NCBI RefSeq assembly: GCF_009668025.1 | Contig: NZ_WJXZ01000011.1 | Location: forward strand, 62,001-126,000 | Length of the DNA stretch: 64,000 bases | Source of the DNA: Larkinella terrae | GTDB lineage: Bacteria > Bacteroidota > Bacteroidia > Cytophagales > Spirosomataceae | Direction: 5' to 3' | Shown: piece by piece, positions 47,103-61,317 of the stretch | Layout of the letters: the number at the start of each line of letters is the position of its first letter | Numbering within the stretch: the stretch's first letter is position 1 | The notes under the pieces: generated by a model | The model's input: only the letters and a program-made list of their open reading frames with translations | Databases searched by the model: none | What the model was told of the DNA's origin: nothing | Made by a program: the position numbers and the translations under genes

Positions 47103-47720
47103 ATGCTTTTTGCGGCACTTACCAGTTGTCTATTGCTTGGAATATGGCATTTTGGGACGAAAAAAGAATTCCTTTCGAACGCTCCCCTCCCCGGTTATGA
47201 TGAGTTACAGGCAAAATGCAGCCATCTGGAAACGCAGCTCCAGCAAAGTCAGGCGGAACAAAACCGGCTGGCGTCCGAACTGGAACTGCGTCATCGGGAG
47301 CTGACGACGCAGACACTCAACCTTTTGCAGAAAAACACGCTGATGGAAGAGGTTCGCGAACTGATCAACGAAATTCTTCAGGCAACGGCTGGGCTGCCAC
47401 AAACGGCGCTGATGAACTACAACCGCCTGATCCGACTCATCGATCACAGCTTCAGTCTGGATAAGGAATGGGAGGATTTCAAACTGTATTTCGAACAGGT
47501 TCACCAGCATTTTTTCGTCCGGCTGAAAGAAAACTGCCCCGACCTGACCGCGGGCGAGCTGCGGTTGTGTGCGCTGGTCAGGCTGAATTTGAGTCTGCGC
47601 GAGTCGGCCACGATTCTGGGTATTTCGCCGGATAGTGTCAAAACCGCCCGGTACCGCATCCGGAAAAAACTGAACCTGCCGGAAGCGGAGAATCTGACGG
47701 ATTTTCTGCTGAAAATTTAA
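47103..47720 (+). CDS. Orphan LuxR-type HTH protein with N-terminal membrane segment and coiled coil
   Basis: 205 residues. A short hydrophobic N-terminus (LFAALTSCLLLGIW) is followed by a coiled coil (~35-85) and a C-terminal LuxR-like HTH of the Bacteroidota type (LTAGELRLCALVRLNLSLRE through ILGISPDSVKTARYRIRKKL). Relatives usually carry long TPR or beta-propeller sensor regions before the coiled coil, which are absent here, and upstream DNA does not encode them. It is therefore a minimal or truncated form. It lies just upstream of the globin and lanthipeptide genes, and a copy of the repeat found before precursor 1 begins 41 bp after its stop. It could be their regulator (inference). Confidence 0.75.
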   Translation: MLFAALTSCLLLGIWHFGTKKEFLSNAPLPGYDELQAKCSHLETQLQQSQAEQNRLASELELRHRELTTQTLNLLQKNTLMEEVRELINEILQATAGLPQTALMNYNRLIRLIDHSFSLDKEWEDFKLYFEQVHQHFFVRLKENCPDLTAGELRLCALVRLNLSLRESATILGISPDSVKTARYRIRKKLNLPEAENLTDFLLKI

Positions 47721-47760: not shown

Positions 47761-47773
47761 ACTTTTTGTATAC
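47761..47773 (+). promoter_or_regulatory. ACTTTTTGTATAC repeat, isolated copy
   Basis: This 13-mer is identical to the repeats at 48784 and 48817 upstream of precursor 1. It lies in the gap after the LuxR-type gene. It is a possible binding site of the same regulator. Confidence 0.5.
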
Positions 47774-47927: not shown

Positions 47928-48073
47928 GTCGCATAGCGACTGAATGTTTGTAGCAAACCGCATGCTCTTTTGTCGGGGGTCGCGTAGCGATCTAACTAAG
48001 CCGTTTGTTCGATCGCTACGCGACCACAACGGGTGGAAAGGCTTCTTCTACAAACATTGGGTCGCGATGCGAC
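47928..48073. repeat. Nested inverted-repeat element (GTCGCGTAGCGA family)
   Basis: The inner perfect 15-bp arms are GGTCGCGTAGCGATC (47978-47992) and its complement (48011-48025). The outer arms are GTCGCATAGCGAC + AATGTTTGTAG (47928-47953) and their complement (48048-48073, few mismatches). Four copies of a GTCGCxxxGCGAC-like core occur in 146 bp. It lies in the ~410-bp gap between the LuxR-type gene and the small membrane ORF, otherwise without a gene. It resembles REP/BIME-type mobile palindromic elements. Confidence 0.8.
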
Positions 48074-48232: not shown

Positions 48233-48646
48233 ATGAATGACCGGCAAATTCTCCTTATCAAATATTCCTGGAGCTATATTCTGCCCCAGGCGCAGCAGAC
48301 GGGCCAGCGGTTTTACGTCAAACTGTTTGAACTGTCGCCCGCGCTGCAACCCATGTTTCGCAACGACCCGGAACTCCAGGCCCGCAAGTTTATCGCGATG
48401 ATGACCCTGCTGGTCCGCCGATTGCAACACGCCAGGGATTTGACGTACGAACTCGAAGCACTGTCCCGGCGCCATGTGCGGTACGGAACGCAGGCCACGG
48501 ATTATGCGCCGGTGGGTCTGGCGCTTTTCTGGACGCTGTCGCAAACACTCGGCGACCGCTGGACCGGCGAAATTCAGTCGGCCTGGCGGGAACTCTACAC
48601 CGCCATTTCGAACGCAATGGTGACAGCCACCCGTCAGCCAGGCTGA
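48233..48646 (+). CDS. Single-domain globin
   Basis: A 137-residue globin fold related to the globin domain of flavohaemoglobins. The CD1 phenylalanine region (ALQPMFRND), E-helix (ARKFIAMMTLLV) and proximal histidine His81 (LSRRHVRYGTQATDY) are visible. No reductase domain follows. It probably binds O2 or NO in the cytoplasm and could scavenge nitric oxide or sense oxygen. It is closed by a terminator. Confidence 0.88.
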   Translation: MNDRQILLIKYSWSYILPQAQQTGQRFYVKLFELSPALQPMFRNDPELQARKFIAMMTLLVRRLQHARDLTYELEALSRRHVRYGTQATDYAPVGLALFWTLSQTLGDRWTGEIQSAWRELYTAISNAMVTATRQPG

Positions 48647-48752: not shown

Positions 48753-48870
48753 ACTTTTTGTTTACCGCTTAGGAATCATGTTCACTTTTTGTATACAATC
48801 CTGGCGACAACTGTAGACTTTTTGTATACCCGCTAAAATTGCATTCCCCCTTTGACTGACCCTACTTTTG
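48753..48870 (+). promoter_or_regulatory. Precursor-1 promoter with three direct repeats
   Basis: Three repeats of TGTNNACTTTTTGTWTAC have their 13-mer cores at 48753, 48784 and 48817, a spacing of 31 and 33 bp (about three helical turns). They are followed by a Bacteroidota-type promoter: TTG at 48839-48841, 21 bp, then TACTTTTG at 48863-48870. The repeats are good candidate activator sites. Confidence 0.7.
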
Positions 48871-48871
48871 C

Positions 48872-48938
48872 ATCGGCAACGCAAAACGGCCACCCGGGGA
48901 CGCCGAAAACCGCTCAGAGTAGGCAGATCAATCACACC
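48872..48938 (+). promoter_or_regulatory. Conserved 5' leader of precursor 1
   Basis: A 67-nt untranslated segment shared with 49212-49277 and 50835-50900. The 17-mer GGGGACGCCGAAAACCG is identical in all three (here 48896-48912). TCGGC near its start can pair with GCCGA in the middle. The start codon is 20 nt further on. Confidence 0.75.
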
Positions 48939-48957
48939 AGTTCAAACACAAATTCAA

Positions 48958-49092
48958 ATGAAAAAGCAAGTTTCGAAAATCACGCTGAAAACCGACAAAA
49001 TCGTCTCTTTATCGAAAATTCAGGCTCAGCAGGTAGCCGGTGGTGCCCGTCCGACGGCCAGCAACTGTACGACCAAGATTTGTAGCATCTAA
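48958..49092 (+). CDS. Class I lanthipeptide precursor 1
   Basis: 44 residues. The leader MKKQVSKITLKTDKIVSLSK leads to AQQVAGG, ending in a double glycine at 28-29. The core is ARPTASNCTTKICSI with two cysteines (37, 42) and five Ser/Thr available for dehydration. The leader matches the Bacteroidota class I lanthipeptide type (pinensin-like), with a lysine/threonine stretch and GG cleavage site. LanB and LanC in the locus should make two (methyl)lanthionine rings. The C39 protease-exporter should cut after GG. Confidence 0.9.
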   Translation: MKKQVSKITLKTDKIVSLSKIQAQQVAGGARPTASNCTTKICSI

Positions 49093-49133
49093 GTTCGGAT
49101 GGTCCACACGGGTGGTTTTCAATTTATGAGTAG

Positions 49134-49210
49134 AATCCTACTAGCTACCAACATAATCCTGCTAGTTACAAATTGCGATATAAATACCGTGTTCTCATTC
49201 ACCAGTTTTG
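49134..49210 (+). promoter_or_regulatory. Precursor-2 promoter with paired 18-bp direct repeats
   Basis: AATCCTACTAGCTACCAA (49134-49151) and AATCCTGCTAGTTACAAA (49155-49172) have a 21-bp period, two helical turns. The -7-like element CAGTTTTG lies at 49203-49210, 31 bp after the second repeat. The same layout precedes precursor 3. There is no -33 TTG at the usual distance, consistent with activator dependence. Confidence 0.7.
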
Positions 49211-49211
49211 T

Positions 49212-49277
49212 ATCGGCCCATCAGAAAGGCCACCCGGGGACGCCGAAAACCGGATCAGAGTAGGCACATATCACACC
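49212..49277 (+). promoter_or_regulatory. Conserved 5' leader of precursor 2
   Basis: A 66-nt segment homologous to the leaders of precursors 1 and 3. The invariant 17-mer is at 49236-49252, followed by CAGAGTAGGCA and ending in TCACACC. The start codon is 15 nt downstream. Confidence 0.75.
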
Positions 49278-49291
49278 AATTTAAAAAGATC

Positions 49292-49438
49292 ATGAAAAAG
49301 CAAATTGCCAAATTGACGCTGAAAACCGATCAGATCATTTCCTTATCGAAAGCACAGGCTTCGAAAGTAGTGGGGGGCATGGCCCGCAACACTGCTACCG
49401 GTTGTACGACGAAGGGATATTGCCCGACGGAACCCTAA
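49292..49438 (+). CDS. Class I lanthipeptide precursor 2
   Basis: 48 residues. The leader MKKQIAKLTLKTDQIISLSK leads to ASKVVGG with the double glycine at 28-29. The core is MARNTATGCTTKGYCPTEP with cysteines 38 and 44 and five threonines. It differs from cores 1 and 3 by one extra residue between TTK and the second Cys and by a PTEP tail. It is followed by a strong hairpin that would limit read-through into the oxidoreductase gene. Confidence 0.9.
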   Translation: MKKQIAKLTLKTDQIISLSKAQASKVVGGMARNTATGCTTKGYCPTEP

Positions 49439-49465
49439 GCCTCGCTTCCATAGCATGCATTTCCA

Positions 49466-49503
49466 AAGCAGCATTTCTCACCAAATGCTGCTTAATTTCA
49501 TTT
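49466..49503 (+). terminator. Terminator/attenuator after precursor 2
   Basis: A perfect 11-bp stem AAGCAGCATTT/AAATGCTGCTT (49466-49476 with 49483-49493) is followed by AATTTCATTTT. It is likely a partial terminator, since the oxidoreductase gene follows 50 bp later. Confidence 0.75.
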
Positions 49504-49545
49504 TCCAGTTACCTGTTTTAGCCTGTATTACAAATCGTTACCACC

Positions 49546-50484
49546 ATGAAATTGGGTCTTCTTGAATTCGGAACCGGATGCGTCAGTCCGATGGATATTG
49601 TTGAAAATGTATTGGAATACGGGCAACGGGCCGAAGAATTAGGCTACACCCGGTTTTGGCTGGGCGAACACTACGGCGCTTCCTCGGCCTACAGCAATCC
49701 GGAAGTGCTGCTGCCGATTCTGGCCGGGATGACCAGCGAGATCAAAATTGGAGTGGCCGGTTTGCTGATGGCGTTTCACAATCCGTACCGCGTGGCGGCT
49801 GCGTTCAAAGTGTTGAACAACCTGTTTCCTAACCGAATCGACCTCGGCGTGGCGGGTGGGGGCGCTCCGCCGGAAATTGCGGCCCACCTCGTTCCGGAGT
49901 CCGATCTGTCGATTCCGGCGATAAAAGTGGAGCGGTTTATCAAAAATACGACGGCTTTGTACGACTATTTATATGCGGAAGAAAACGCGAATCAGATCGT
50001 GCCGTTTGGCGGTTTTCTGCCCACGTTCTGGTCGCTGACGGCCAGCCTGAAAAACATTCCGGTGCTGGCCAGCCAGGCTTCTTCGCTGTGCAAGTCGCTG
50101 TTTCACACCCCGATCGACGACCACAAACGGGAGGCTGAACGGCTGCATCAATACCGGGCCGCTTTTTTCGAAAACCACGGCCGGGAGCCGGAAATCAACC
50201 TGGCTTTTGCCGGTGTCTGCGCCGAAACGGATCGGCAGGCCCGCAAAATCCGGAAAGAACTGGAACGGCCCGTTGGCGTCTACAACGAACTCATTGGCTC
50301 CCCGACGTACATGCTAGACGAACTGGCCCGGCTCCAGGAAATCTACGAAGTGGACGAATTTATATTCATGAATATGGCCGAAGAAACCGGTCATAAACTC
50401 AAAAGCATCGAGTTGCTGAGCCAGACGCTCCAACGCTACGCTGCCTCACCGTATGCCACGGAACGGCTGGTCGGCATGGTGTAA
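49546..50484 (+). CDS. Luciferase-like (LLM) flavin-dependent oxidoreductase
   Basis: A 312-residue LLM-class TIM barrel of the FMN/F420 superfamily. The N-terminal KLGLLEFGTGC, then EELGYTRFWLGEHYG and NRIDLGVAGGG strands match the fold. It sits between lanthipeptide precursors 2 and 3 on the same strand, in a region otherwise devoted to this pathway. Known LanJC-type enzymes of this superfamily reduce dehydro-amino acids in lanthipeptides using F420H2. Bacteroidota are not generally thought to make F420, so FMN is more likely here. The tailoring role is inferred from context; an unrelated monooxygenase is possible. Confidence 0.82.
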   Translation: MKLGLLEFGTGCVSPMDIVENVLEYGQRAEELGYTRFWLGEHYGASSAYSNPEVLLPILAGMTSEIKIGVAGLLMAFHNPYRVAAAFKVLNNLFPNRIDLGVAGGGAPPEIAAHLVPESDLSIPAIKVERFIKNTTALYDYLYAEENANQIVPFGGFLPTFWSLTASLKNIPVLASQASSLCKSLFHTPIDDHKREAERLHQYRAAFFENHGREPEINLAFAGVCAETDRQARKIRKELERPVGVYNELIGSPTYMLDELARLQEIYEVDEFIFMNMAEETGHKLKSIELLSQTLQRYAASPYATERLVGMV

Positions 50485-50543
50485 CGTTCAGGCGGTTTAT
50501 CTAAACCGAAAACCGGTCAACAATCTAATTTGCACGATGAATC

Positions 50544-50579
50544 AGGCTTGAGTTCCGAAAGGGCTCAGGCCTTTTTTGT
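50544..50579 (+). terminator. Terminator after the LLM oxidoreductase
   Basis: A 9-bp stem AGGCTTGAG/CTCAGGCCT (50544-50552 with 50564-50572, one G-U pair) is followed by TTTTTGTTG. Confidence 0.8.
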
Positions 50580-50612
50580 TGTCAATTCGAATGCATTTCA
50601 AGCAGCAATCTC

Positions 50613-50636
50613 AGCCCACGGTTAAAACCGTGGGCT
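50613..50636. repeat. Perfect AGCCCACGGTT palindrome (REP-like)
   Basis: A 24-bp perfect palindrome with arms AGCCCACGGTT/AACCGTGGGCT. A degenerate copy lies at 27862-27886. It is a probable dispersed palindromic element in the 433-bp gap between the oxidoreductase and precursor 3. Confidence 0.7.
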
Positions 50637-50756
50637 ATTAATTTACCAATACCAAATCGTTAATTCGGAAAAACCGGTTTCTGGTTTCGTTGATGCAATA
50701 GGGAACGACAACCGGTTTTCCTTTCCAGGAAAGGTCCCAAAACAGCCGATGGGTGA

Positions 50757-50833
50757 TTTTCTGCTAGTTACCAATCAATTCCTACCAGCTACAAGTTGGG
50801 CCTTCTGAATCAACCCGCAGCTCGCCAAATTTG
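50757..50833 (+). promoter_or_regulatory. Precursor-3 promoter with paired 18-bp direct repeats
   Basis: TTTTCTGCTAGTTACCAA (50757-50774) and ATTCCTACCAGCTACAAG (50778-50795) have a 21-bp period. The -7-like CAAATTTG is at 50826-50833, again 31 bp after the second repeat as for precursor 2. The segment TTCTGAATC...CGGCCA (50803-50842) is 32/40 identical to the region before lanB. Confidence 0.7.
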
Positions 50834-50834
50834 T

Positions 50835-50900
50835 ATCGGCCAATCAGAAAGGCCACACGGGGACGCCGAAAACCGGACAGAGTAGGCAATTAATCACACC
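50835..50900 (+). promoter_or_regulatory. Conserved 5' leader of precursor 3
   Basis: The third copy of the ~66-nt leader, with the invariant 17-mer at 50859-50875. TCGGC (50836-50840) and GCCGA (50865-50869) can form a closing stem. The start codon is 18 nt downstream. Confidence 0.75.
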
Positions 50901-50917
50901 ATAAAAAACAAACTCTA

Positions 50918-51055
50918 ATGAAAAAGCAAGTTTCAAAAATCACGCTGAAAACCGACAACATCATCTCACTGTCAAAAAGCCAGGCTCGCAACGTTATCGG
51001 TGGCCGTCCGCACGAAACCGCTACGGCTTGTACGTCTAAAATTTGCGAACCGTAA
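50918..51055 (+). CDS. Class I lanthipeptide precursor 3
   Basis: 45 residues. The leader MKKQVSKITLKTDNIISLSK leads to ARNVIGG (double glycine at 28-29). The core is RPHETATACTSKICEP with cysteines 38 and 43 and four Ser/Thr. The T-A-T/S-x-C-T-S/T-K pattern is shared by all three cores, so all should give the same ring layout with different ends. It lies immediately upstream of the lanB operon. Confidence 0.9.
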   Translation: MKKQVSKITLKTDNIISLSKSQARNVIGGRPHETATACTSKICEP

Positions 51056-51094
51056 TCGGTTTTCAAATCCGTTCGCCAAAACAACTCGTTGCTG

Positions 51095-51180
51095 AATCCA
51101 TACCAGTCATTCACCATTTCAAACCAGTGGTTCAATGAAATTTCTGAATCTGTTCGCAACTCACCAAGTTTGTAGCGGCC
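51095..51180 (+). promoter_or_regulatory. Promoter region of the lanBTC operon
   Basis: 51141-51180 is 32/40 identical to the precursor-3 promoter, including the -7-like CAAGTTTG (51164-51171). Degenerate direct repeats (AATCCATACCAG at 51095 and ATTTCAACCAG at 51116) sit where the operator repeats lie before precursors 2 and 3. This predicts co-regulation of enzymes and precursors. Confidence 0.6.
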
Positions 51181-51213
51181 ACCACAATACGACAAGAAAC
51201 CGCTGAAAAGCAC

Positions 51214-51249
51214 GAAGGAGTTTTATGAAAGTAAGACTCCTTCATTTTG
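51214..51249 (+). terminator. Attenuator-like hairpin in the lanB leader
   Basis: GAAGGAGT (51214-51221) and ACTCCTTC (51236-51243) are followed by ATTTTGTT. It lies between the lanB promoter and the lanB start, and would also stop read-through from precursor 3. Confidence 0.6.
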
Positions 51250-51289
51250 TTAAAATGCTGATTGCGAGTACCTACACACAACACGACTG

Positions 51290-54200
51290 ATGACTTTCAT
51301 GAAAACAACTGCTTTCGAAACGACGTTCGTACGCGTGCCCATTGCCGGTTTTGCCGCCATTGAAAACCCCGACTGGTCGAAGCTCCGCCGGGAAATTACC
51401 CGTCCGGCTTTTCTGGAAGCATTGTACATCGCTTCGCCCGCTTTGTACGAAGAAGCCATCCAGTTTGATTTCAGCCGCCAGCCCGACGAAAAATCCCGCC
51501 GGGTGTTGTACTCCCTGATCAAGTATTTATCCCGTTACGCAACCCGTTGCACGCCGTTCGGACTCTTCAGCGGTTTTGCCACAACTCCCGTCGAATCGAC
51601 CCGCACCGACGTACGTATAAGCAATACCGGTAGTCTAAAACGGGTAGTTCGGCTCGATATGAATTACCTTTGCGCACTGGCGCAGGATCTGGAAAAACAC
51701 CCCGATGTAAAACCGCATCTGCGTTTTTTTCCAAATTCCAGCCTGTACGAAATCAACGATCAATACCGGTACGTGACGTATCGCTACGAAAACGGCCAGC
51801 GGATTCACCACCTCAGCAGCGCCGACCAAAGCGAATACCTGACGAACGTACTGGACATCAGCAAAACCGGTTCCCAAATCGAAACCCTGATTTCATCGTT
51901 GATCGACGACGAAATCACCGAAGAAGACGCCGAAAATTTCGTCGAATCGGTCATCGAGGCCCAGTTGCTGGTGAGCGAACTGGAACCTTCGCTGACGGGC
52001 GAAAATTTCTTACTCCAGATCCTGGCCATTCTGCAAACGATTGGCCGTCAGCATCCTTCTGACGAATTAGCGCATCTTGTTGGGCTGTTGCAGGAGGTTC
52101 AGGTTGATCTGAAAACGCTTGAAAACAGCGAACAAGAGACGTCGATCGAACTCCTCAATCAGGTTGAGCAGAAGCTGAGCCGCCTGTCCACCCCGTTCGA
52201 CCGCAAGGTTCTCTTCCAGATCGACACTTATTTACCCACGCTCTCCGGCCAACTCAACCGGGGACTTCTCAATAAATTGGTTGCCAAAATTCCAGCGCTC
52301 CTTAAACTGTCGCCCGGCAGCAGCGGGGCGCTGGATGATTTTCGCGACCGGTTTTACGCGCAATACGAAGATGAAGAAATACCGCTGGTCGTCGCGCTCG
52401 ACCCCGAAATTGGCGTCGGTTTTCCGGCCAACCGCGATCAGTTTGACGATTCTCCGCTGGTAGATGGCGTGGTGGCTGGCCCGTCGGCTTCCGGCAAAAA
52501 AACCTGGACGGTGGCACCCGAACAAGCGTTTCTGTTTCAGAAAATTGCGGAAGCACAACTCAGTCATACCCAGCAGATTACCATTACCGAAGAAGACCTG
52601 GCGCAACTCGGCCAGCCCCGGATGAATCTGCCGCCTACCAACGGCGCGATGCTTTCTGTTATCCGCGAAAACGGGCGCGAAACGCTGATTCTGGACAGTT
52701 TTGGCGGTAATACCGGCACGTCCTTACTCGGTCGTTTCGGGCATACCGACGCGAAAGTGCTCGACCTGGTGCAACAGATCAGCCAGGCCGAAGACGAAAT
52801 TCGGCCCGATGTGATTTTTGCCGACATCATTCATTTACCCGAAGCCCGAACCGGTAACATCATCATCCGGCCCCAGCTGAAAAACTACCAGATTCCGTAC
52901 CTGGGCAAGGCGTCAGTCGACGCGGAACACCAGATTCCGGTGACGGATCTGACGATTCGGGTGCAGGGCGATCGCGTGGTGCTGCGGTCGAAGTCGCTCA
53001 ACAAAATCATCGTTCCCCAGCTTTCGAACGCCCATAACTACGCTCAGAACAATTCGCTAGACGTCTATCATTTCCTCTGCGCCCTGCAACACCAGTCGAT
53101 CCGGCCCTGGCTGGGCCTTTCGATGGGGGCTGCCAGTTCGGTTTTTGTCTTTCTGCCCCGGATTGTATTTGACAACATCATTCTGGCCGAAGCCCGCTGG
53201 AATTGCCGGTCGCAGCAGGTCAAACCGCTGGTAACGGCGTTTAAGAAGGCAGACTGGGCGGGGTTGAAAACCGAGGTCGACCGCTGGCGCGAACACTACC
53301 GGATTCCGCGGCACATTTGCCTGATGGATTACGACAACGAATTGTACATCGATCTGGAAAATCCGTGGCTGGTCGAAACGTTCGTCAACGAGATCAAATC
53401 GCAGGACAAATTTCAGATCAAGGAGTTTCTGCACCACGCCGACAACGCCGTGGTGCAATCCTCCACGAGCTGGCACACGAATCAGTTTATCGTGGCTTTT
53501 AAAAACGAGCCGGATGCTTTAGCCCCTAAATCCCCTAAAGGGGACTTGGACCTGGCAACAACCGAATGCGTAAAGTCCCCTTTAGGGGATTTAGGGGTTT
53601 CCCGGACGTTTTTTTCCGGTTCGGAATGGCTCTATTACAAGATTTACACCGGCATCAAAACCGCCGATACGATCCTGACCAATGTGCTGTATCCGCTGGC
53701 GGAACGGTTTGAAAATCAGGGTTGGACGGACAAATTTTTCTTTATCCGCTACGGCGATCCGCAGCTTCACATCCGGTTCCGGTTTCACCTCATCAACCCG
53801 GCTTTTCTGGGTCAGGTCATTCAGGAATTGCACGACGCGCTGGCGCCTTTCCTGGCCAAAAAGGTGATTACGGGCATCGTCAACGACACCTACAACCGGG
53901 AACTGGAACGCTACGGCCGCACTTCCATCGACGCCGTTGAGACGTATTTCCACCTTGACAGCCAGTCTATTCTGCTATTCCTGAGTCTGATTGAAGGAGC
54001 CGAGGGCGAAGAATGCCGCTGGCGGTTTGGCATGAAGCTCATCGATACGCTGCTGGACGAATTCGGTTTTGACCTGAAACAGAAACTGGATTTTGCGGAC
54101 GAAAAAGCCGCCCAGTTTGGCCGGGAATTTGGCTACAATTCGGTGCTGAAAAAACAACTCGACACCCGCTACCGGGAAATTGAAACCGCCATCGGCGAGT

Positions 54201-54499
54201 TGTGGACCGAAACCAACGAAGAACACCAGTTTTTCTACGACCTGAACCGCCAGCGTCGGGAAACGCTGCAACCGTTTATTCAGACCATCTCGCAACTGGC
54301 CAATCAGGGCAAGCTGGAAGTGCCGCTGTTCTCGCTCCTGAGCAGTCTGATTCACATGACGACCAACCGGTTGTTCCGCACGCGGCAGCGGTTTGTCGAA
54401 TATTCGCTCTACTACCATCTCCATAAATATTATCGGACTACCTACGGACGCGCCGTGCTGGCGAAGAAAAACGCGCTGCTCGAAGCCGTAACTTTTTAG
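51290..54499 (+). CDS. lanB: Class I lanthipeptide dehydratase LanB
   Basis: 1069 residues, a full-length LanB with both halves. The N-terminal glutamylation domain (residues ~1-735; FDFSRQPDEKSRRVLYSLIK and CTPFGLFSGFA are typical) transfers Glu from glutamyl-tRNA to Ser/Thr. The C-terminal SpaB-type elimination domain (~775-1060; WLYYKIYTGIKTADTIL and RYGDPQLHIRFRF) expels it to give dehydro residues. An ATG three codons in (51299) is an alternative start. A perfect 25-bp inverted repeat is inserted in frame in the linker between the domains. lanT follows after 2 bp, so the genes are coupled. Confidence 0.95.
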   Translation: MTFMKTTAFETTFVRVPIAGFAAIENPDWSKLRREITRPAFLEALYIASPALYEEAIQFDFSRQPDEKSRRVLYSLIKYLSRYATRCTPFGLFSGFATTPVESTRTDVRISNTGSLKRVVRLDMNYLCALAQDLEKHPDVKPHLRFFPNSSLYEINDQYRYVTYRYENGQRIHHLSSADQSEYLTNVLDISKTGSQIETLISSLIDDEITEEDAENFVESVIEAQLLVSELEPSLTGENFLLQILAILQTIGRQHPSDELAHLVGLLQEVQVDLKTLENSEQETSIELLNQVEQKLSRLSTPFDRKVLFQIDTYLPTLSGQLNRGLLNKLVAKIPALLKLSPGSSGALDDFRDRFYAQYEDEEIPLVVALDPEIGVGFPANRDQFDDSPLVDGVVAGPSASGKKTWTVAPEQAFLFQKIAEAQLSHTQQITITEEDLAQLGQPRMNLPPTNGAMLSVIRENGRETLILDSFGGNTGTSLLGRFGHTDAKVLDLVQQISQAEDEIRPDVIFADIIHLPEARTGNIIIRPQLKNYQIPYLGKASVDAEHQIPVTDLTIRVQGDRVVLRSKSLNKIIVPQLSNAHNYAQNNSLDVYHFLCALQHQSIRPWLGLSMGAASSVFVFLPRIVFDNIILAEARWNCRSQQVKPLVTAFKKADWAGLKTEVDRWREHYRIPRHICLMDYDNELYIDLENPWLVETFVNEIKSQDKFQIKEFLHHADNAVVQSSTSWHTNQFIVAFKNEPDALAPKSPKGDLDLATTECVKSPLGDLGVSRTFFSGSEWLYYKIYTGIKTADTILTNVLYPLAERFENQGWTDKFFFIRYGDPQLHIRFRFHLINPAFLGQVIQELHDALAPFLAKKVITGIVNDTYNRELERYGRTSIDAVETYFHLDSQSILLFLSLIEGAEGEECRWRFGMKLIDTLLDEFGFDLKQKLDFADEKAAQFGREFGYNSVLKKQLDTRYREIETAIGELWTETNEEHQFFYDLNRQRRETLQPFIQTISQLANQGKLEVPLFSLLSSLIHMTTNRLFRTRQRFVEYSLYYHLHKYYRTTYGRAVLAKKNALLEAVTF
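53523..53597. repeat. In-frame 75-bp palindromic element inside lanB
   Basis: Perfect 25-bp inverted arms (CCCCTAAATCCCC... at 53523-53547 and its complement at 53573-53597) flank a 25-nt loop. The 75 bp equal exactly 25 codons and are read in frame as APKSPKGDLDL...KSPLGDLG (residues ~745-769). It falls in the linker between the two LanB domains. Confidence 0.9.
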
Positions 54500-54501
54500 C
54501 C

Positions 54502-56745
54502 ATGAAACCGATGAAGAACGTTTTAAAATCCATCTTCGGCGGCAAAATGAGCCCTTACGCACTGGTCGACCGGTTTCCGCACCTCGACCAAAGCGCCGGG
54601 ATGGACTGCGGCCCCACCTGTCTGGCGATGGTTTTCCGGTATTACGGTTCGGCGGATGTGCGGCATCAATTGACTAAACTGGCCGAAGTGAACACCGAAG
54701 GCAGCAGCCTGTATGACCTGATGGAAATTTCGGAAAGTTTCGGTTTCAAGGCGGAAGGCTACGAACTGGATTATCCATACCTGCAAAAGATTCAGCTGCC
54801 CTGCATCGCCCACTACGAAGGCCAGCATTTTGTGGTCGTTTACGAAGCCACCGACACTTACGTCCGGGTGGCCGACCCCGCTTTTGGCAAGGCCCGGTAT
54901 TCGCAGGAGGAATTCTGCAACAAATGGAGCGGGATTGTGCTGGAACTGACGCCGACGCCCAAGTTCTACGAAAGCAGTGAACTGACCGAAGCCGTTCAGG
55001 AACATCAGGTTAAAAAAGCCTCGGTTTTCCGGCAACTGTATTTCCCGATTCTGAAGGAAGGCAAGCGCGTGCTGGCCGAGATTTTCCTGTTTTCGCTGAT
55101 TCTGGAACTGGTCGGGCTGGTGTTACCGCTGTTTACGCAAACCATGCTCGACAACGTGCTGATCAACCAGAACAAAAAGCTGCTGGTGGGAATTCTGGCC
55201 GGTCTGATGCTGGTTTTTGTCGTGCAGGTGGTGCTGACCTGCGGGCGCAGCATGCTGATGATGCACTACCGGTTTCGCTTCGAAACCGAGTTCATGGGCA
55301 AGTTTTTCGAGCGACTGATTTCGCTGAAACAGAAATACTACGACAGCCGCAAACGCGAGGAATTTATGTCGCGGTTTCAGGAGGGTATCAGCATCCGGGC
55401 GCTGACCAACCCGATCATCATCCAGCAGTTTCTGGACGTGTTTTTCATGCTGATCTACTTCCCGATTCTGTTCAGTTTCAACACGCAACTGGCGACCATC
55501 GCGCTGGTCTGTTTCGTGTCGTACGGCCTGACAACGGTTTATTTCATTCCGATTGTGAAAAACCTGCGGTCGAAGGTTTACCACAAAAACCAGGCGTCGC
55601 TGGGCGGTTTTCTGGATACGGTTTTGGGCATCAAAACCGTCAAGCTGCTGTCGCTCGAAAAATACAAACTGGTTCGGTGGAAGCAACTGCACCGCGAATC
55701 GATCAACTCCGTGATGGCCGACGAAGAAAAGCAGATTCTGATCAATTCGATCCAGCGGTTAATCTTCATTTTCAGCCAGATAGCGGTGTATTGGGTCGGT
55801 GCCTACCAGATCTTTACCGGCGAACTGACCATCGGGCAATACATGGCGTTTACGGCCATTTTCATGATTCTGATGAACTCCATCAACAGCGTCAGCATGC
55901 TCTGGATGATGGTGACGCAGTTGAGCGTCAGTTTCGGAAAAGTAAACGAGATTTTTCTGGAAGACGAAGAAGCCGCCGACGTGCAAAAGCAGGTTTCCCG
56001 GTTTTCGGGCAAGTCGATCCGGTTCAAAAATGTGTCGTTCCGCTACCAGCAAAAAGACGCCCGATACGTCCTGAAAAACCTGAACTGCGAAATCCGGCAG
56101 GGCGAACGCATCGGGATTGTGGGCCGGAACGGAACCGGAAAATCCACCTTCGTCAAGCTGCTGATGAATCTGTATCCCGACTATGAAGGCCAGATTTTTT
56201 GCGACGACGCCGAACTGCGGACCATTCACCCGAAAACGCTGCGGAAGCACGTTCATTTGTTCCCGCAGGACACCTACGTTTTCAACGACACGATCCGGGA
56301 AAACATCCGCTGCGCCAACCTGTCGGCCTCGATGGAGCAGATTGCGGAAGCCGCTCAGCTAGCGGATCTGCACCAGTTTGTGAAGTCGAACCACCTGGGT
56401 TACAACCACATGATCGGCAGTTTTGGCAGCAATCTGTCGGGCGGTCAGGTGCTGAAGATCGGTTTTGCCCGGCTTTTCGTGGCCGACCAACCCGACATCA
56501 TCATTCTGGACGAAGCCAGCAGCGCGCTGGACGTGGAAACCGAGCGCCGGATTCTGAACAACATTTACGAGCAGTTTAAAGGCAAAACCATTATCTCGAT
56601 TGCGCACCGGCTCAACACACTCAAGAACGTGGACCGGATTCTGGTATTTGACGAAGGCACCATCGCCGAGCAGGGCACCCATGTCGAACTTATTGACAAA
56701 CAAGGACTTTACTACGATTTCATCAAAACCTATATCGACTACTAA
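54502..56745 (+). CDS. lanT: C39-peptidase ABC exporter (LanT)
   Basis: 747 residues in three parts. The N-terminal C39 peptidase domain has catalytic Cys36 in MDCGPTCLAM and His/Asp in EGQHFVVVYE...VADPAFGKARY. The membrane domain (~165-465) follows. The ATP-binding domain has Walker A at 541-549 (GRNGTGKST), signature LSGGQ and Walker B IIILDEASSALD. It should cut precursors after the double glycine and export the core across the inner membrane with the HlyD-type partner encoded 3 bp downstream. Confidence 0.95.
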   Translation: MKPMKNVLKSIFGGKMSPYALVDRFPHLDQSAGMDCGPTCLAMVFRYYGSADVRHQLTKLAEVNTEGSSLYDLMEISESFGFKAEGYELDYPYLQKIQLPCIAHYEGQHFVVVYEATDTYVRVADPAFGKARYSQEEFCNKWSGIVLELTPTPKFYESSELTEAVQEHQVKKASVFRQLYFPILKEGKRVLAEIFLFSLILELVGLVLPLFTQTMLDNVLINQNKKLLVGILAGLMLVFVVQVVLTCGRSMLMMHYRFRFETEFMGKFFERLISLKQKYYDSRKREEFMSRFQEGISIRALTNPIIIQQFLDVFFMLIYFPILFSFNTQLATIALVCFVSYGLTTVYFIPIVKNLRSKVYHKNQASLGGFLDTVLGIKTVKLLSLEKYKLVRWKQLHRESINSVMADEEKQILINSIQRLIFIFSQIAVYWVGAYQIFTGELTIGQYMAFTAIFMILMNSINSVSMLWMMVTQLSVSFGKVNEIFLEDEEAADVQKQVSRFSGKSIRFKNVSFRYQQKDARYVLKNLNCEIRQGERIGIVGRNGTGKSTFVKLLMNLYPDYEGQIFCDDAELRTIHPKTLRKHVHLFPQDTYVFNDTIRENIRCANLSASMEQIAEAAQLADLHQFVKSNHLGYNHMIGSFGSNLSGGQVLKIGFARLFVADQPDIIILDEASSALDVETERRILNNIYEQFKGKTIISIAHRLNTLKNVDRILVFDEGTIAEQGTHVELIDKQGLYYDFIKTYIDY

Positions 56746-56748
56746 TCC

Positions 56749-58020
56749 ATGCATTCGCTCCTGGCAGAACTGGAAGTCACCCAGTACGAGAGTTTATACC
56801 ACGTCGACGATGCGCCCATTGCCGACGTTCGCCAGCGGATTTTGAGCCGCCTGGGCTGGCTGGCCGTGGTGCTGACAATGGTCGGTGCCGGATTGGCTTT
56901 TGTCATTCGGTTTCCGGATATGATCGCCGTTCCGTTCGTGGTCAAATCCGAAGTTGCCGAAGACATGTACCGGTTTCCATCGACGATTTACGTGGAAAAA
57001 ACCTTCGTCAAACCGGGTCAAACCGTAGCGGCCGGAACACCCCTGCTCGAAGTGAGTGCGCCCGATGTGGCCGCGCTGGTGAGCGATTGGTCGGCGGCCC
57101 GCACGGCCGTGGGACAATACGAAAAATACCGGACGGTTTCGGCGGATAAGGAACGTCAGATCATTGCGTTGACGGTGGCCCAGATTCGGGAAGACATTCG
57201 CTTAAAAGAAACGCAGATTGAGGTGCAAAAGGCGAAATGGACCTCCGAACTGGCGAAACTGAAGTTTGAACAGGAAGACGCGCAGCGGATTTTCAAGATC
57301 AATCAGGACCTGTACCGCACCGGCGACATCAGCAAAAACGACCTCAATAATTACGAAGCCACGCTCTTGCGGGCGCAGGCGGCTTACCAGAGCGGCACGC
57401 AGAATTTCGGCCACGAAGACCGCTCCTTACGCCAGCAAATCGAAACCAAACGGCTGGAAATGCTGAGTCTGGAAAAACAGCTGACGAAGAGAGAAACCGA
57501 TTTCCGGGGCGAGGGCGCCCAACTTCGCAGTTCGCTGGATGCCGTTCACAAACGCATTGAAGGGCGGTTTGGAAAGTTCGAAATTACCCCGAATAACCAC
57601 CTGATTCTGAAGGCCGAGCGGGCCGGTACGGTTTCGTTTGTATTCGATGGCGAAAAAGAGGCCGCACCCGGCGCAATGGTTCTCAAAATGATTTATCAGA
57701 ACGCTCCGCTTTACGCATATACGCAGGTCAATTCGTCGCGCATCGGACAGGTGAAAGTGGGACAGGAAGTGGTGTTGAAACTGGATGCCTACCCGGTTTA
57801 CGAATGGGGAACGGTGCGCGGGCGGGTGAGCCAGGTTTCGATTACGCCCGACGAAAAGGGACTGTTCAATGTTCAGGTGCAATTAACGGACTTTCAGCGG
57901 CTCGACAAGCGCGTCCGGATCGGGATGCAGGGCCATTGCAACATCATTTTCGACGAACGAACACTGTCTGACTACACGTTCCGTCATTTCAAAAAAATAG
58001 CTTCCGAAGTCACGGAATAA
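56749..58020 (+). CDS. HlyD-family membrane fusion protein of the lanthipeptide exporter
   Basis: 423 residues. One membrane helix (LGWLAVVLTMVGAGLAFVIRF, about 36-56) is followed by a first barrel-sandwich strand, a long coiled coil (~120-260), the second lipoyl half and a beta-barrel ending in a short amphipathic tail. It connects LanT to an outer-membrane TolC-like duct, needed in a Gram-negative producer. No OMF gene is in the cluster, so a general one such as 9273-10592 or another must be used. Confidence 0.9.
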   Translation: MHSLLAELEVTQYESLYHVDDAPIADVRQRILSRLGWLAVVLTMVGAGLAFVIRFPDMIAVPFVVKSEVAEDMYRFPSTIYVEKTFVKPGQTVAAGTPLLEVSAPDVAALVSDWSAARTAVGQYEKYRTVSADKERQIIALTVAQIREDIRLKETQIEVQKAKWTSELAKLKFEQEDAQRIFKINQDLYRTGDISKNDLNNYEATLLRAQAAYQSGTQNFGHEDRSLRQQIETKRLEMLSLEKQLTKRETDFRGEGAQLRSSLDAVHKRIEGRFGKFEITPNNHLILKAERAGTVSFVFDGEKEAAPGAMVLKMIYQNAPLYAYTQVNSSRIGQVKVGQEVVLKLDAYPVYEWGTVRGRVSQVSITPDEKGLFNVQVQLTDFQRLDKRVRIGMQGHCNIIFDERTLSDYTFRHFKKIASEVTE

Positions 58021-58044
58021 CGCACTGATTCCCAGCCAATAATC

Positions 58045-59250
58045 ATGAACGAATTGCTGACCGACACACAAACATTAGTGGAAACCGAGCTCCACCGGAT
58101 TTATGAACGGATTGCCGCCGAGCCGGTTGGCGGTAATTTTTCCCTGCTGTCGGGACAGACAGGCTATGCGGTTTTTGAAAGTTACTACCTGCGTCATTTC
58201 GGATTAACCGACAACAGCCGCGTCTGGGAACGGCTCGGCGCGGGGATCAACGCCATTCAATCGGGTGACGTAGACCACACGTTTGCCGGTGGCATTTCGG
58301 GCATTGCCTGGGCGTTTCTGCATTTACACAACCACGGTTTTTTAGCCGACAGTTCGGACGATCCGCACGACATTGTAGCCGCACTCGACGAGCCGCTGTT
58401 TCTGCTGTCGATGGACGATCTGTATGCCGGTAGTTTCGATTATTTACACGGCGGTTTGGGCGCCTGTCTGTATTTTCTGGAACGCCCGCGTTCGGCCGAA
58501 ACCGTGTATTACCTCACGGAAATCGTTAATCAACTGGAAAAAATTGCCCTCAAAAAAACCGACGGATCGATCACCTGGTATTTCCGGAATTTCGACCGGC
58601 CGGACGATCGGTCGGTTTCGTACAACCTGGGGTTGTCGCACGGCACGGCCAGCATTGTGGCCGTGCTGAGTTTGCTGTACCGGCATGGATACGCCCAGAA
58701 TCAGTGCGCCCGGCTGATCGAAGGCGGTTTGCAGTGGTTGTGGAGCGTTCGGAATGAGAACAATCCGGCGGTTTTTCCCCGGCAGTTGTTTGACGACCAG
58801 CCGCGCGACGAATTCAGCCGGATGGCGTGGTGCTACGGCGATCTGGGCATTGCGCACACGTTTCAGCTGGCGGGCGAAATCTTCAACCATAACCGCTGGA
58901 AGCAGATTGCCGAACTGACCATGCTGAAAGCCGCCACCCGCCGAAGTCGGAAGGAAACGCTGGTGTCCGACACCGCGTTCTGCCACGGTTCGGGCGGTAT
59001 CAGCCATCTGTTTGCCCGATTTGCGCAATCACATCCGAACCCGGTTCTGGACGAAACCGCCCGGTTCTGGTTGCAGGTTACGCTCGATCACGCCCTGCCG
59101 TCATCGGAGAATGACATTTTGCAGCAACCCATTCCGCTGTCAATCCGTGGGGACCTGAGTTTCCTGGATGGAGAAGCCAGCATTGGCATGATTTTACTGT
59201 CGCAACTGGGCGCGGACACCGCCTGGGAACGGGCGTTTCTGTTGCGGTAG
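58045..59250 (+). CDS. lanC: Lanthionine cyclase LanC
   Basis: A 401-residue alpha-toroid LanC protein. The three zinc ligands are visible: Cys263 in AWCYGDLG, and Cys313-His314 in FCHGSGGISHLF. Repeated GxxG helices (FAGGISGIAWAFLHLHNHG, YLHGGLGACLYFL) match the family. It catalyses addition of Cys thiols to the dehydro residues made by LanB. It is the last gene of the lanB-T-HlyD-C operon and converges with the MFS gene 16 bp on. Confidence 0.95.
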   Translation: MNELLTDTQTLVETELHRIYERIAAEPVGGNFSLLSGQTGYAVFESYYLRHFGLTDNSRVWERLGAGINAIQSGDVDHTFAGGISGIAWAFLHLHNHGFLADSSDDPHDIVAALDEPLFLLSMDDLYAGSFDYLHGGLGACLYFLERPRSAETVYYLTEIVNQLEKIALKKTDGSITWYFRNFDRPDDRSVSYNLGLSHGTASIVAVLSLLYRHGYAQNQCARLIEGGLQWLWSVRNENNPAVFPRQLFDDQPRDEFSRMAWCYGDLGIAHTFQLAGEIFNHNRWKQIAELTMLKAATRRSRKETLVSDTAFCHGSGGISHLFARFAQSHPNPVLDETARFWLQVTLDHALPSSENDILQQPIPLSIRGDLSFLDGEASIGMILLSQLGADTAWERAFLLR

Positions 59251-59266
59251 GAATCAATCTCCGGAT

Positions 59267-60688
59267 TCACTCCGCGACCGAAACCACGGGCTGGGCCAGC
59301 TTTTGATCCGGCAGCCGGTAAAGCAGGTAACTTACCAGAATCAGGCAAAAGACTTCGACCCACGCGCCTGATTGAAAAGCCGCTAGATAATGATAACTGT
59401 CCGGATTTCCCGGCAATTTCGAGAAAAACAACCCGCCGATCAGGCTCACCCCGAGCGCCGAAGCGGTTTGCTGAATGGTGGAATAAACGCCGGATGCGGC
59501 ACCGGCAAATTGAATCGGTATGCTTTTGAGCGCCATGTTCACCAACGACGGCAACACAAAACCGTTCCCAAATCCATACAGGACCATCGTCGTCAGCAGC
59601 AGCCAGCGGGGCGATTGGGGCGTCAGCAGATTCAGTTGCAGCAGAAGAATGGTGGTCATCAGCAGTACGCCCACCTGCAAAACGGCTTTCCCGTAACGCA
59701 CCACCAGCCGGATCGACAACAGCGAAGACGTCATAAAACCGAGGCCCAGCAACACGAAATTAAGGCCGGTCTGGTACGGCGAAATCCGCATTCCGTTCTG
59801 AAAATAAAGCGTGCTGATCAGCAAGTAGGACGTATGCACCATGAAAAAGAACAGGGTAGCTACCAGCGTAATCGTAAAATCCCGGAACTGAAACAGATTC
59901 ATGTTGACAAGTGGGGCTTTTCCGTTCGCCAGTTTCGCCCGCTGATGGCGGATGAAATAATAAAAAATACCCGCTGAAGCCAGTAACATCCCAACGGTCC
60001 ACCACGGCCAGCCGGTTTCGCGCCCCTGAATGAGGGGGTAGATCAAGAAAACGAGAGCAAACGTTAGGATAGCAGTTCCTGAATAGTCGAACGATTGCAA
60101 ACGGTTTCGGGCGGTTTCGGGCAAGTAAACGGCCGCCGTCAGCAACGCGATCAGACCAATCGGGAGGTTGATGAAGAAGATCAGCCGCCAGCCCTCGATG
60201 GCGAAGTGACTTTCCGAGAAATAACCGCCTAAAAACTGGCCCGTAATGGAAGCAACGCCCAGCGTCAGGCCGAAAAAACCGACGGCTTTGGTTCGCTCCG
60301 CCGACTGCGTAAACAGGACCTGAATGTAGGAAATCGTTTGCGGCACCATGAAAGCCGCACTGATGCCCTGCAGAAAACGCGCCAGATTGAGTTGAAGCGG
60401 GGTTTGGGCCAGCCCGCATAAAGCGGACGTAATCGTAAAAAATGCCATGCCCCACATGAATACTTTTTTACGACCCAACACATCGCCCGCCCGGCCACCC
60501 GTGATCAGGAACGACGCGTAACCCAGCAGATACCCGGCAATGACCAGTTGTAATTGCCCGTCGGTGGCCCGAACCCCGGTTTTGATGGCGGGAATGGCAA
60601 TATTGACGATAAATACGTCGATGACGGAAAGCAGGGGGGCCGTCAATACCACCAGTAGCGCGACCCATTTGGAGTTATTCTGATTCAT
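59267..60688 (-). CDS. MFS drug exporter (DHA2/EmrB-like, 14 TM)
   Basis: 473 residues with about 14 membrane helices. DHA2 signatures include LDVFIVNIAIPAIK-like PLLSVIDVFIVNIAIPAI in TM1 and GGRAGDVLGRKKVFMWG after TM2. It is a proton-driven exporter of small organic compounds. The TetR gene lies 71 bp upstream on the same strand, and an 18-bp palindrome sits 5 bp before the start. It converges with lanC; a role in self-resistance is possible but unsupported beyond proximity. Confidence 0.92.
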   Translation of the reverse strand: MNQNNSKWVALLVVLTAPLLSVIDVFIVNIAIPAIKTGVRATDGQLQLVIAGYLLGYASFLITGGRAGDVLGRKKVFMWGMAFFTITSALCGLAQTPLQLNLARFLQGISAAFMVPQTISYIQVLFTQSAERTKAVGFFGLTLGVASITGQFLGGYFSESHFAIEGWRLIFFINLPIGLIALLTAAVYLPETARNRLQSFDYSGTAILTFALVFLIYPLIQGRETGWPWWTVGMLLASAGIFYYFIRHQRAKLANGKAPLVNMNLFQFRDFTITLVATLFFFMVHTSYLLISTLYFQNGMRISPYQTGLNFVLLGLGFMTSSLLSIRLVVRYGKAVLQVGVLLMTTILLLQLNLLTPQSPRWLLLTTMVLYGFGNGFVLPSLVNMALKSIPIQFAGAASGVYSTIQQTASALGVSLIGGLFFSKLPGNPDSYHYLAAFQSGAWVEVFCLILVSYLLYRLPDQKLAQPVVSVAE

Positions 60689-60759: not shown

Positions 60760-61317
60760 TTAAAGAAATTTTTCCACAATGGTTTTTCCGTTGTGCAACG
60801 ATGAGGAATTTTTAGCAATTGAGCCGTTGACCGCCCCCCCTTCCAGCAGCAAAAAAATCAGATCCGTCAACTGCTCATCCGTCAGAACCGCGGAATGATC
60901 GACCTGCTGCACAAGCTGCCCGATGAAATCTTTAAACCGCTGTTTCTGAGCCTTCACCAGCTCCAGAACGTCCGTTTCGTCGCGGCTCACCTCGGCACTG
61001 ATTTTAATAAACTGGCAACCGCCAAAACCGGATTCCTGCTGACGTTTAACGCGCTGATCGAAAAGCGCCAGCAACTTCTGCTTTGGATCGGCGATCGGCG
61101 CTAAAAACGCTTCCAGTTGGGCAAACCAGTTCCGCTCTGCCCGCTCCAGATACGCCAGCAACAAGGCGGTTTTGGAATCAAAGTGATTGTAAAGCGAGGC
61201 CCGGGCAATTTCAGCTTCGTCGATAATCTGGTTGATGCCGGTCAGGTTATAGCCTTGCTGATAAAAAAGCCGGGAGGCTACGGCAACAATCCGGTCTTTT
61301 ACGGCTGACTCTTTCAT
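60760..61317 (-). CDS. TetR/AcrR family regulator of the MFS exporter
   Basis: 185 residues. The N-terminal HTH (ASRLFYQQGYNLTGINQIID through ARASLYNHFDSKTALL) is clear. The ligand-binding half includes FGGCQFIKI with a cysteine (about 100) often conserved in redox- or electrophile-responsive relatives. It is first in a two-gene operon with the MFS exporter, and matching operators precede both genes, giving autorepression and repression of the pump. Confidence 0.93.
   Translation of the reverse strand: MKESAVKDRIVAVASRLFYQQGYNLTGINQIIDEAEIARASLYNHFDSKTALLLAYLERAERNWFAQLEAFLAPIADPKQKLLALFDQRVKRQQESGFGGCQFIKISAEVSRDETDVLELVKAQKQRFKDFIGQLVQQVDHSAVLTDEQLTDLIFLLLEGGAVNGSIAKNSSSLHNGKTIVEKFL

Follow-up and report, generated by a model that had tools for sequence, protein, structure and literature searches.

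Gene content of the locus

Within a 64,000-nt stretch of the Larkinella terrae genome (contig NZ_WJXZ01000011.1, positions 62,001 to 126,000 of the forward strand), referred to here as the window, lies a class I lanthipeptide gene cluster in which each of three precursor genes, P1, P2 and P3, is preceded by a short element resembling the Rfam motif DUF805b (RF02914). The genes and elements of the cluster are on the + strand, and positions are given in window coordinates. P1 (48958..49092) encodes 44 aa with the core ARPTASNCTTKICSI, P2 (49292..49438) 48 aa with the core MARNTATGCTTKGYCPTEP and P3 (50918..51055) 45 aa with the core RPHETATACTSKICEP. Their leaders, which end in Gly-Gly (GG) ahead of cores with two Cys, reach 41.6, 54.7 and 49.7 bits, respectively, with NF038158 (NCBIfam lant_leader_L1b, class I lanthipeptide), and all exceed its cut-off of 27 bits.

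A luciferase-like (LLM) flavoenzyme, a putative flavin mononucleotide (FMN)-dependent tailoring enzyme (49546..50484; PF00296), is encoded between P2 and P3. P3 is followed by a full-length LanB dehydratase of 1069 aa (51290..54499; PF04738 with 479 bits, PF14028 with 225 bits), the C39 peptidase-ABC exporter LanT (54502..56745; PF03412, PF00664, PF00005), a HlyD-type adaptor (56749..58020; PF13437) and the LanC cyclase (58045..59250; PF05147). The original prediction, made from the letters alone, had named the same LanB, C39-type LanT, HlyD, LanC and LLM oxidoreductase genes, and all of them were identified in scans with hidden Markov models (HMM), which covered genes between 47 and 61 kb of the window. 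Its assignment to class I agrees with the NF038158 leaders and the LanB and LanC domains, and the Bacteroidota host it proposed is borne out by LanB, whose closest homologs among named relatives are those of Larkinella rosea, L. humicola and L. knui. Absent from that prediction were a fourth precursor on another contig, the DUF805b-like elements, the repeats upstream of the precursors and the linkage of LLM with LanB, all described below.

Structure comparisons gave the same picture. LanB is collinear with solved LanB structures (9g04, 5ehk, 4wd9, NisB among them), and residues 34-741 of LanT match the bacteriocin transporter 4ry2. In LanC the WCYG (AWCYG) and CHG motifs, which we take to be the zinc ligands (Cys, Cys-His), align with NisC 2g02 and 8byk. 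By profile and structure comparison the locus therefore combines what marks a class I cluster: a LanB with glutamylation and elimination domains, the LanC motifs and L1b leaders.

Across 150 sampled genomes of the family, L1b leader matches at E<=0.001 were found in 13. Seven of the sampled Larkinella genomes have an L1b leader, and all seven have the same gene set, which is therefore more than a chance arrangement; the starts of LanB and LLM are 1.5-3.1 kb apart in each. In the two Larkinella genomes lacking an L1b leader, searches for LanB (E<=1e-10) and for LLM (E<=1e-30) both came out empty. Minor variations occur, as LanC is placed between LLM and LanB instead of at the end in genomes G016 and G058, and in G082 one precursor sits on the end of a neighbouring contig.

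Precursors and core geometry

The three precursors had been predicted to be paralogs on one ring scaffold sharing a T-A-T/S-x-C-T-S/T-K core, which is seen here as TASNCTTK, TATGCTTK and TATACTSK. For a comparison 18 of the 19 known Larkinella precursors were aligned (the nineteenth, G082:C37, fits by eye). A Ser/Thr stands exactly four residues before the first core Cys in 18/18 and a Thr four residues before the second in 16/18, in agreement with that scaffold, and two rings of the same size are therefore predicted. The original prediction also raised a multi-component product as a possibility. Core conservation in relatives, proposed as a check, was found across the aligned precursors, and P3-type cores are present in 6/7 Larkinella genomes. 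Every one of the 18 cores contains 3-5 Ser/Thr compared with two Cys, so that dehydrated residues should be left over.

The host genome encodes one LanB and four L1b precursors. The fourth, with the core MKPTALGCSTKGYCPAGI, is located on contig 6, and no match to LanB, LanT, HlyD, LanC or LLM was found in the 16 kb around it; processing in trans by the genome's only LanB is probable. G108 (C112) and G082 (C4), the latter a fragmented assembly, likewise have an L1b precursor that is not on the contig of their LanB.

A DUF805b-like element precedes the precursor genes

DUF805b is an orphan cis-regulatory motif in Rfam. Element 1 (48893..48925; 28.0 bits, E 1.6e-4) lies in the predicted 5'-untranslated region (5' UTR) of P1, element 2 (49233..49266; 34.8 bits, E 8.3e-7) before P2 and element 3 (50856..50888; 35.5 bits, E 4.6e-7) before P3. 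As in RF02914, the copies contain the conserved GAAAA and AGAGUAGG together with three of the four Rfam stem pairs and are placed upstream of a gene. The 56-nt stretch before each precursor is 77-100% alike to a reference copy, and the copy of L. rosea reaches 36.1 bits. Further Rfam matches (MIR9486, snoU13, Acido-Lenti-1, mir-5365, sR3) are far under their gathering scores and were taken as chance.

The whole host genome has seven DUF805b matches at E<=0.1, four of which precede the four L1b precursors. Two others precede a lipoprotein-like gene and a gene of 90 aa, probably SCO4226-like. The seventh (C1:288737, E 0.0097) was set aside as weak, and at E<=0.1 7/14 control genomes match too. 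At E<=1e-4 the motif is present in 101/150 family genomes and at E<=1e-5 in 66/247 genomes of the phylum, with 0/14 control genomes at either threshold.

To relate element and precursor, all 43 L1b leader matches at E<=0.001 in the 150 family genomes were tallied. The patterns used to pick precursor open reading frames (ORFs) missed some L1b precursors (e.g., one in locus L078 and two in L084), and all 40 listed leader matches outside the window were rechecked. The element precedes 19/19 precursors in Larkinella, 3/3 in G044 and 5/6 in G120, which represent two further genera (27/28 together), and 0/1 in G094, whose leader is of the L1a type. In one locus (L088, 12700-14196) seven L1b-type precursors follow each other in a row, six with the element and one with a decayed copy.

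For the analysis of the element itself a family set of 150 copies was used, consisting of 144 of the 148 listed places outside the host genome (82 genomes) and six places within it. A LanB gene is found within 15 kb of 20 of the 150 elements, compared with about 0.4% expected; one G028 contig, where the leaders are of another type, accounts for seven of these 20 and the window for three. In that G028 locus (L091, C135:10695-14480) seven elements are packed into 3 kb, and every one is followed by a short peptide with a GG leader of the other type; five of these peptides begin with MYS. It lies 6-9 kb from LanB and looks like a second array of ribosomally synthesized and post-translationally modified peptides (RiPPs) with the same RNA tag.

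DUF805b as a covarying pseudoknot

A register could be assigned to 149 of the 150 family elements, 135 of them unique. The Rfam stem is paired in 129, 134 and 130 of the 135 at its three inner positions and in 99/135 at the fourth. In addition, the bases before GAAAA can pair with those after AGAGUA, which gives a second helix whose three positions are paired in 131, 135 and 125 of 135. The structure line of the Rfam search output contains the first stem only, and the search is therefore not selecting for the second helix.

The variable pair of this helix is formed in 125/135 compared with 66.4 (sd 4.5) in shuffled sets. It occurs as GC, CG, UA, AU and GU, ranks third among all column pairs in mutual information, and if it is slid by one column only 31 or 38 of 135 pair. 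As a held-out set we used the first 60 elements outside the family among the matches listed; here the variable pair is formed in 55/57 unique elements of other families compared with 25.8 (sd 3.5) in shuffles. In the elements of the 18 aligned Larkinella precursors (again leaving out G082:C37) the helix is 100% paired, whereas slid controls reach at most 42%. Double-sided changes occur in two of its three pairs, in one sequence each (ACC/GGU in L076, GCU/AGC in L081). A fourth pair was tried and found unsupported (34/135 compared with 40.5 shuffled). Taken as sequence covariation, these data show an H-type pseudoknot for DUF805b, whose second, pseudoknotted helix goes beyond the stem in that structure line.

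Position of the element and genes downstream

A distance of 15-35 nt separates the end of the element from the chosen start codon in 124/149 family cases and in 56/59 held-out cases. The promoter box typical of this phylum, with the consensus TAnnTTTG, includes the motif TTTG. About 15-25 nt upstream of the element TTTG is enriched (56 in 14 positions compared with a mean of 1.6 per position), and the element is therefore probably near the 5' end of the mRNA. The full TAnnTTTG occurs within 60 nt upstream of 18/148 DUF805b matches, compared with 3.9 in mononucleotide shuffles.

DUF805b often precedes secreted proteins or double-Gly peptides. The ORFs downstream of the 150 family elements were sorted into those resembling signal-peptide proteins or lipoproteins (58), short ORFs with a GG (38), others (38) and short ORFs (15), one element having none; for the 60 held-out elements the numbers in this order are 27, 9, 17, 6 and one. 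The signal-peptide and GG classes were assigned by crude ad hoc rules, and the signal-peptide numbers are raw counts. When 149 of the downstream proteins were scanned with HMMs, the matches included 13 L1b leaders, seven ricin-type lectins, five DUF805 proteins, three subtilases and three contractile-injection-system proteins. In loci outside the family (L213-L272) DUF805b also stands before several proteins that by eye resemble contractile-injection or tail proteins, and before bacteriocin-like peptides of the MKNLKKLTRxDLKxxKGG type.

The LLM flavoenzyme

Relatives of LLM at E<=1e-30 gave 18 matches in 15/150 family genomes, and for all 18, the window's own included, a PF04738 LanB gene is no more than 10 kb away. 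Given that these genomes have 122 LanB places in an estimated 900 Mb or so, the linkage is far beyond chance. Eight of the loci are distant (31-39% identity), and each has two LanC-like matches. A pattern search picked 27 L1a-type precursor ORFs, spread over six of the eight; no precursor ORF was picked in L211, and L208 has only one, without a lanthipeptide-like leader. L209, L210 and L212 contain tandem pairs of LLM genes, with two LanC-like genes and precursors of the L1a type next to them.

An alignment of the 18 LLMs yielded a confident structure model (mean pLDDT 88.1). The predicted fold is closest to MsnO8, followed by other flavin monooxygenases, and the first F420 enzyme appears at rank 18. 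Against TIGR03558 (MsnO8 family) LLM scores 136 bits, below the curated cut-off of 166.95. A PADLOC match of LLM was set aside since it points to a generic oxidoreductase. No F420 ligase (PF01996) was found at E<=0.01 in the host genome, which is 99.94% complete; among the 14 control genomes the same model matches three, all archaea. A cofactor of the FMN type is therefore likely for this predicted tailoring enzyme. Reduction and oxygenation by LLM are indistinguishable at the sequence level.

Predicted transcription units

Three transcription units, P1, P2-LLM and P3-lanBTDC (D for HlyD), with partial read-through between them, are suggested by hairpins after P2 (49466..49493, a possible partial terminator), after LLM (50544..50572, terminator-like) and after P3, ahead of LanB (51214..51243, again a possible partial terminator). 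Upstream of P1 an operator-like repeat A (ACTTTTTGTWTAC) occurs three times (48753-48765, 48784-48796, 48817-48829), followed by a candidate -7 box TACTTTTG (48863..48870) fitting TAnnTTTG; a further copy (47761..47773) lies before the neighbouring globin gene. These four are the only exact copies in the 7.85-Mb genome, all on one strand and within 1.1 kb. The start of the locus had been placed at 48753, which is a real feature, the first base of a repeat A copy, but not the start of a gene.

P2 and P3 carry a different operator-like direct repeat B (AGYTACNA twice, 21 nt apart; 49141..49173 and 50764..50796). Such a pair occurs twice in the whole genome, only before these two genes. In other Larkinella loci both halves precede two of ten P2- or P3-type genes and a single half precedes seven, while one gene has neither. 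Since both repeat patterns were derived from these very sites, the genome counts mean only that further exact copies are absent. A 40-nt partial copy of the region upstream of P3 (51142..51181; direct repeat D6, 80%) does not include DUF805b and is possibly a decayed cassette. A scan for sigma-70-type promoters, which is uninformative in this phylum, was discarded (six found compared with 8.0 expected).

Interpretation and alternative explanations

We interpret the locus, with a probability of about 0.72, as a class I lanthipeptide system that comprises at least four precursors, a dedicated LLM enzyme and a DUF805b-like pseudoknot in the 5' UTRs of its three units. Gene identities, the shared gene set, element positions, covariation and the LLM-LanB linkage are read from the sequence. 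A conditional model is proposed for the chemistry, the structure of the transcripts, the bioactivity, and the direction of control and what triggers it. Promoter-specific regulators would switch the transcription units. The pseudoknot, which leaves about 20-35 nt between its end and the AUG of the precursor, would most likely control ribosome loading and so tune translation of the precursor, a control that would be common to many other exported peptides and proteins of Bacteroidota. LanB would glutamylate and then eliminate core Ser/Thr, and LanC would close two (methyl)lanthionine rings of the same geometry (Thr(i) to Cys(i+4) twice), so that LanB, LanC and LLM together would modify all four precursors. 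LanT would cut after GG and export the product with HlyD and a general outer-membrane channel. As a best guess, LLM would act near ring B, converting a left-over dehydroalanine or dehydrobutyrine into a D-amino acid by reduction; S- or C-oxygenation is a close rival.

Several results weigh against this interpretation. The window copies all score under the RF02914 gathering score of 35.6, and for this reason they are called DUF805b-like. The element precedes 0/14 L1b precursors in three genomes of genus g31, two of which are Runella, and none of the 27 L1a-type ORFs in the six distant LLM clusters. It is therefore not needed for class I lanthipeptides, and the idea that DUF805b is a general mark of them was rejected. 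LLM in turn has no match in the Runella clusters, so rings can form without it. Of the three pseudoknot pairs two hardly vary (124.9 and 135.0 in shuffles), and the covariation consequently rests mainly on one pair. The terminator-like hairpins are only moderately in excess of shuffles (31 compared with 17.6, sd 4.3). Of the family downstream genes, the 38 'other' and 15 'short' ones have no sign of export by the rules used. The excess of short GG peptides is modest, at 26/138 (19%) after removal of 12 L1b precursors from the 38, compared with 147/2000 (7%) for random ATG-anchored starts, and 9/60 in the held-out set.

The likeness of the three window UTRs over the 56-nt reference stretch is also what would be expected of an ordinary class I cluster in which a precursor cassette was duplicated and DUF805b has no regulatory role; that GCC/GGC is common to 12/18 Larkinella elements in the pseudoknot helix fits this too. 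However, the double-sided changes within the precursor set preserve the pseudoknot, unrelated genes in other families carry the same element with the same covariation and start-codon spacing, and the fourth precursor on its separate contig also has it. We regard duplication without function as unlikely. Nearly as improbable, in our view, is that the peptides are signals instead of antibacterials, with the flanking globin and helix-turn-helix (HTH) genes as a sensing module. The globin gene directly precedes P1 with repeat A on both sides, and no dedicated immunity genes are seen. The absence of LanFEG-type immunity had already been predicted and holds, as LanT is the sole ABC transporter among the genes scanned. 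To our knowledge, however, LanFEG is not universal, which counts against a signal function, as does the finding that neither the globin nor the HTH gene has a match in the Larkinella loci searched.

The role of LLM is more evenly balanced. Microbisporicin belongs to class I, and actagardine has a luciferase-like S-oxidase, GarO, which did not appear in the literature searched. An oxygenase, acting for example in thioether S-oxidation, would fit the flavin monooxygenases, MsnO8 first, as nearest predicted folds and the host without F420 ligase. Passages of PMC7268733 mention flavoproteins oxidizing the lanthionine sulphur, and a microbisporicin congener with a sulfoxide is mentioned in part of PMC10676316. 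On the other side, LLM enzymes (LanJC) are proposed in PMC7268733, in the portion available, to reduce dehydrated residues, and such residues would be left over in all 18 aligned cores. An oxygenase is thus a serious possibility, although we consider it somewhat less probable than a dehydroamino-acid reductase.

Relation to known systems

Class I lanthipeptides of Bacteroidota had been described in the original prediction as little studied beyond pinensins, which is an overstatement. As far as the accessible parts of these papers go, a study of 2020 described class I precursors from Bacteroidetes that combine an LxLxKx5L leader with GG and C39 proteases (PMC7268733), and a class I cluster of Runella limosa (LanI-101, RuiABC) was expressed (PMC9576775, PMC9993889), where the peptide made in E. 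coli was 7-fold dehydrated with three thioether rings (PMC9993889). The R. limosa locus in our set (L016) resembles the window in its L1b leaders, several precursors and proteins (LanB 61%, LanT 75%, LanC 50% and HlyD 51% identical), but differs in its cores, has no LLM match and no DUF805b before its precursors. One of its precursor cores contains seven Ser/Thr and three Cys by hand count, which fits seven dehydrations and three rings, and L016 is therefore probably the expressed cluster. That cluster in turn is, judged by sequence, probably an ortholog of the one in the window. The pinensins of Chitinophaga are likewise class I lanthipeptides of Bacteroidota, but according to passages of PMC7268733 with a split LanB, in contrast to the single 1069-aa LanB here.

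LanJC enzymes (that of birimositide; LxmJ of lexapeptide) share with the window a reductase gene inside a lanthipeptide cluster, the birimositide one being luciferase-like in the text seen of PMC7268733. The predicted luciferase-like fold and the place of LLM in a lanthipeptide cluster would agree with how LanJC is defined. The described LanJC enzymes are from class II or V and actinomycetes, with LxmJ dependent on F420H2 (sections of PMC10373908 and PMC11519912), whereas LLM belongs to class I and a member of the Bacteroidota without F420 ligase; a class I LanJC member of the FMN type would be a variant. D-amino acids made by LanJ are, in the part seen of PMC11519912, mainly reported from class II and a class V lanthipeptide, while a flavin enzyme stands beside the class I LanB in 18/18 cases here; reductases in other classes may act too, as a passage of PMC7268733 suggests.

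No literature on DUF805b was found, and that on DUF805 is unrelated by title, as is all work returned for Larkinella together with lanthipeptides. In the open-licence literature no link between DUF805b and RiPPs was found, by searches mostly aimed at other questions, and no description of its use before lanthipeptide or double-Gly peptide genes. The kind of cluster is thus already known; the RNA tag at each precursor, the pseudoknot and the dedicated LLM are what set this cluster apart. An orphan candidate RNA is thereby given a fuller structure and a testable role in the control of RiPPs and other exported peptides, and its tag offers a route to unlinked precursors. More tentatively, and with somewhat less than even confidence, DUF805b may act throughout Bacteroidota as a common pseudoknot for the translational control of antagonistic peptides that are exported (lanthipeptides, bacteriocin-like double-Gly peptides, secreted proteins and possibly contractile-injection parts), with unlinked RiPP precursors forming one post-transcriptional regulon and LLM founding an FMN-dependent class I tailoring family.

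Flanking genes

Upstream of P1 lie a single-domain globin gene (48233..48646; PF00042), possibly co-regulated with P1, and a putative regulator of uncertain membership (47103..47720), which has an N-terminal hydrophobic stretch, a coiled coil (by eye) and a sigma70-r4/LuxR-like HTH with weak HTH matches only; both are on the + strand. The putative regulator had no tblastn match in the 16 loci L075-L090, and the globin gene none in the Larkinella loci searched. Downstream of LanC a major facilitator superfamily (MFS) efflux gene (59267-60688) and a gene named TetR-like by eye (60760-61317) were considered as immunity genes or cluster members and rejected, having no match in L075-L090. Between the HTH gene and the globin gene inverted repeats of the GGTCGCGTAGCGA type (I1, I2; 47928-48073) are present, perhaps a REP-like element. 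Among 47 globin matches in the family, five lie within 15 kb of LanB (positions compared by eye), and four, namely that of the window and those in G139:C7, G130:C1 and G087:C20, have a DUF805b on the same strand 209-1355 nt downstream.

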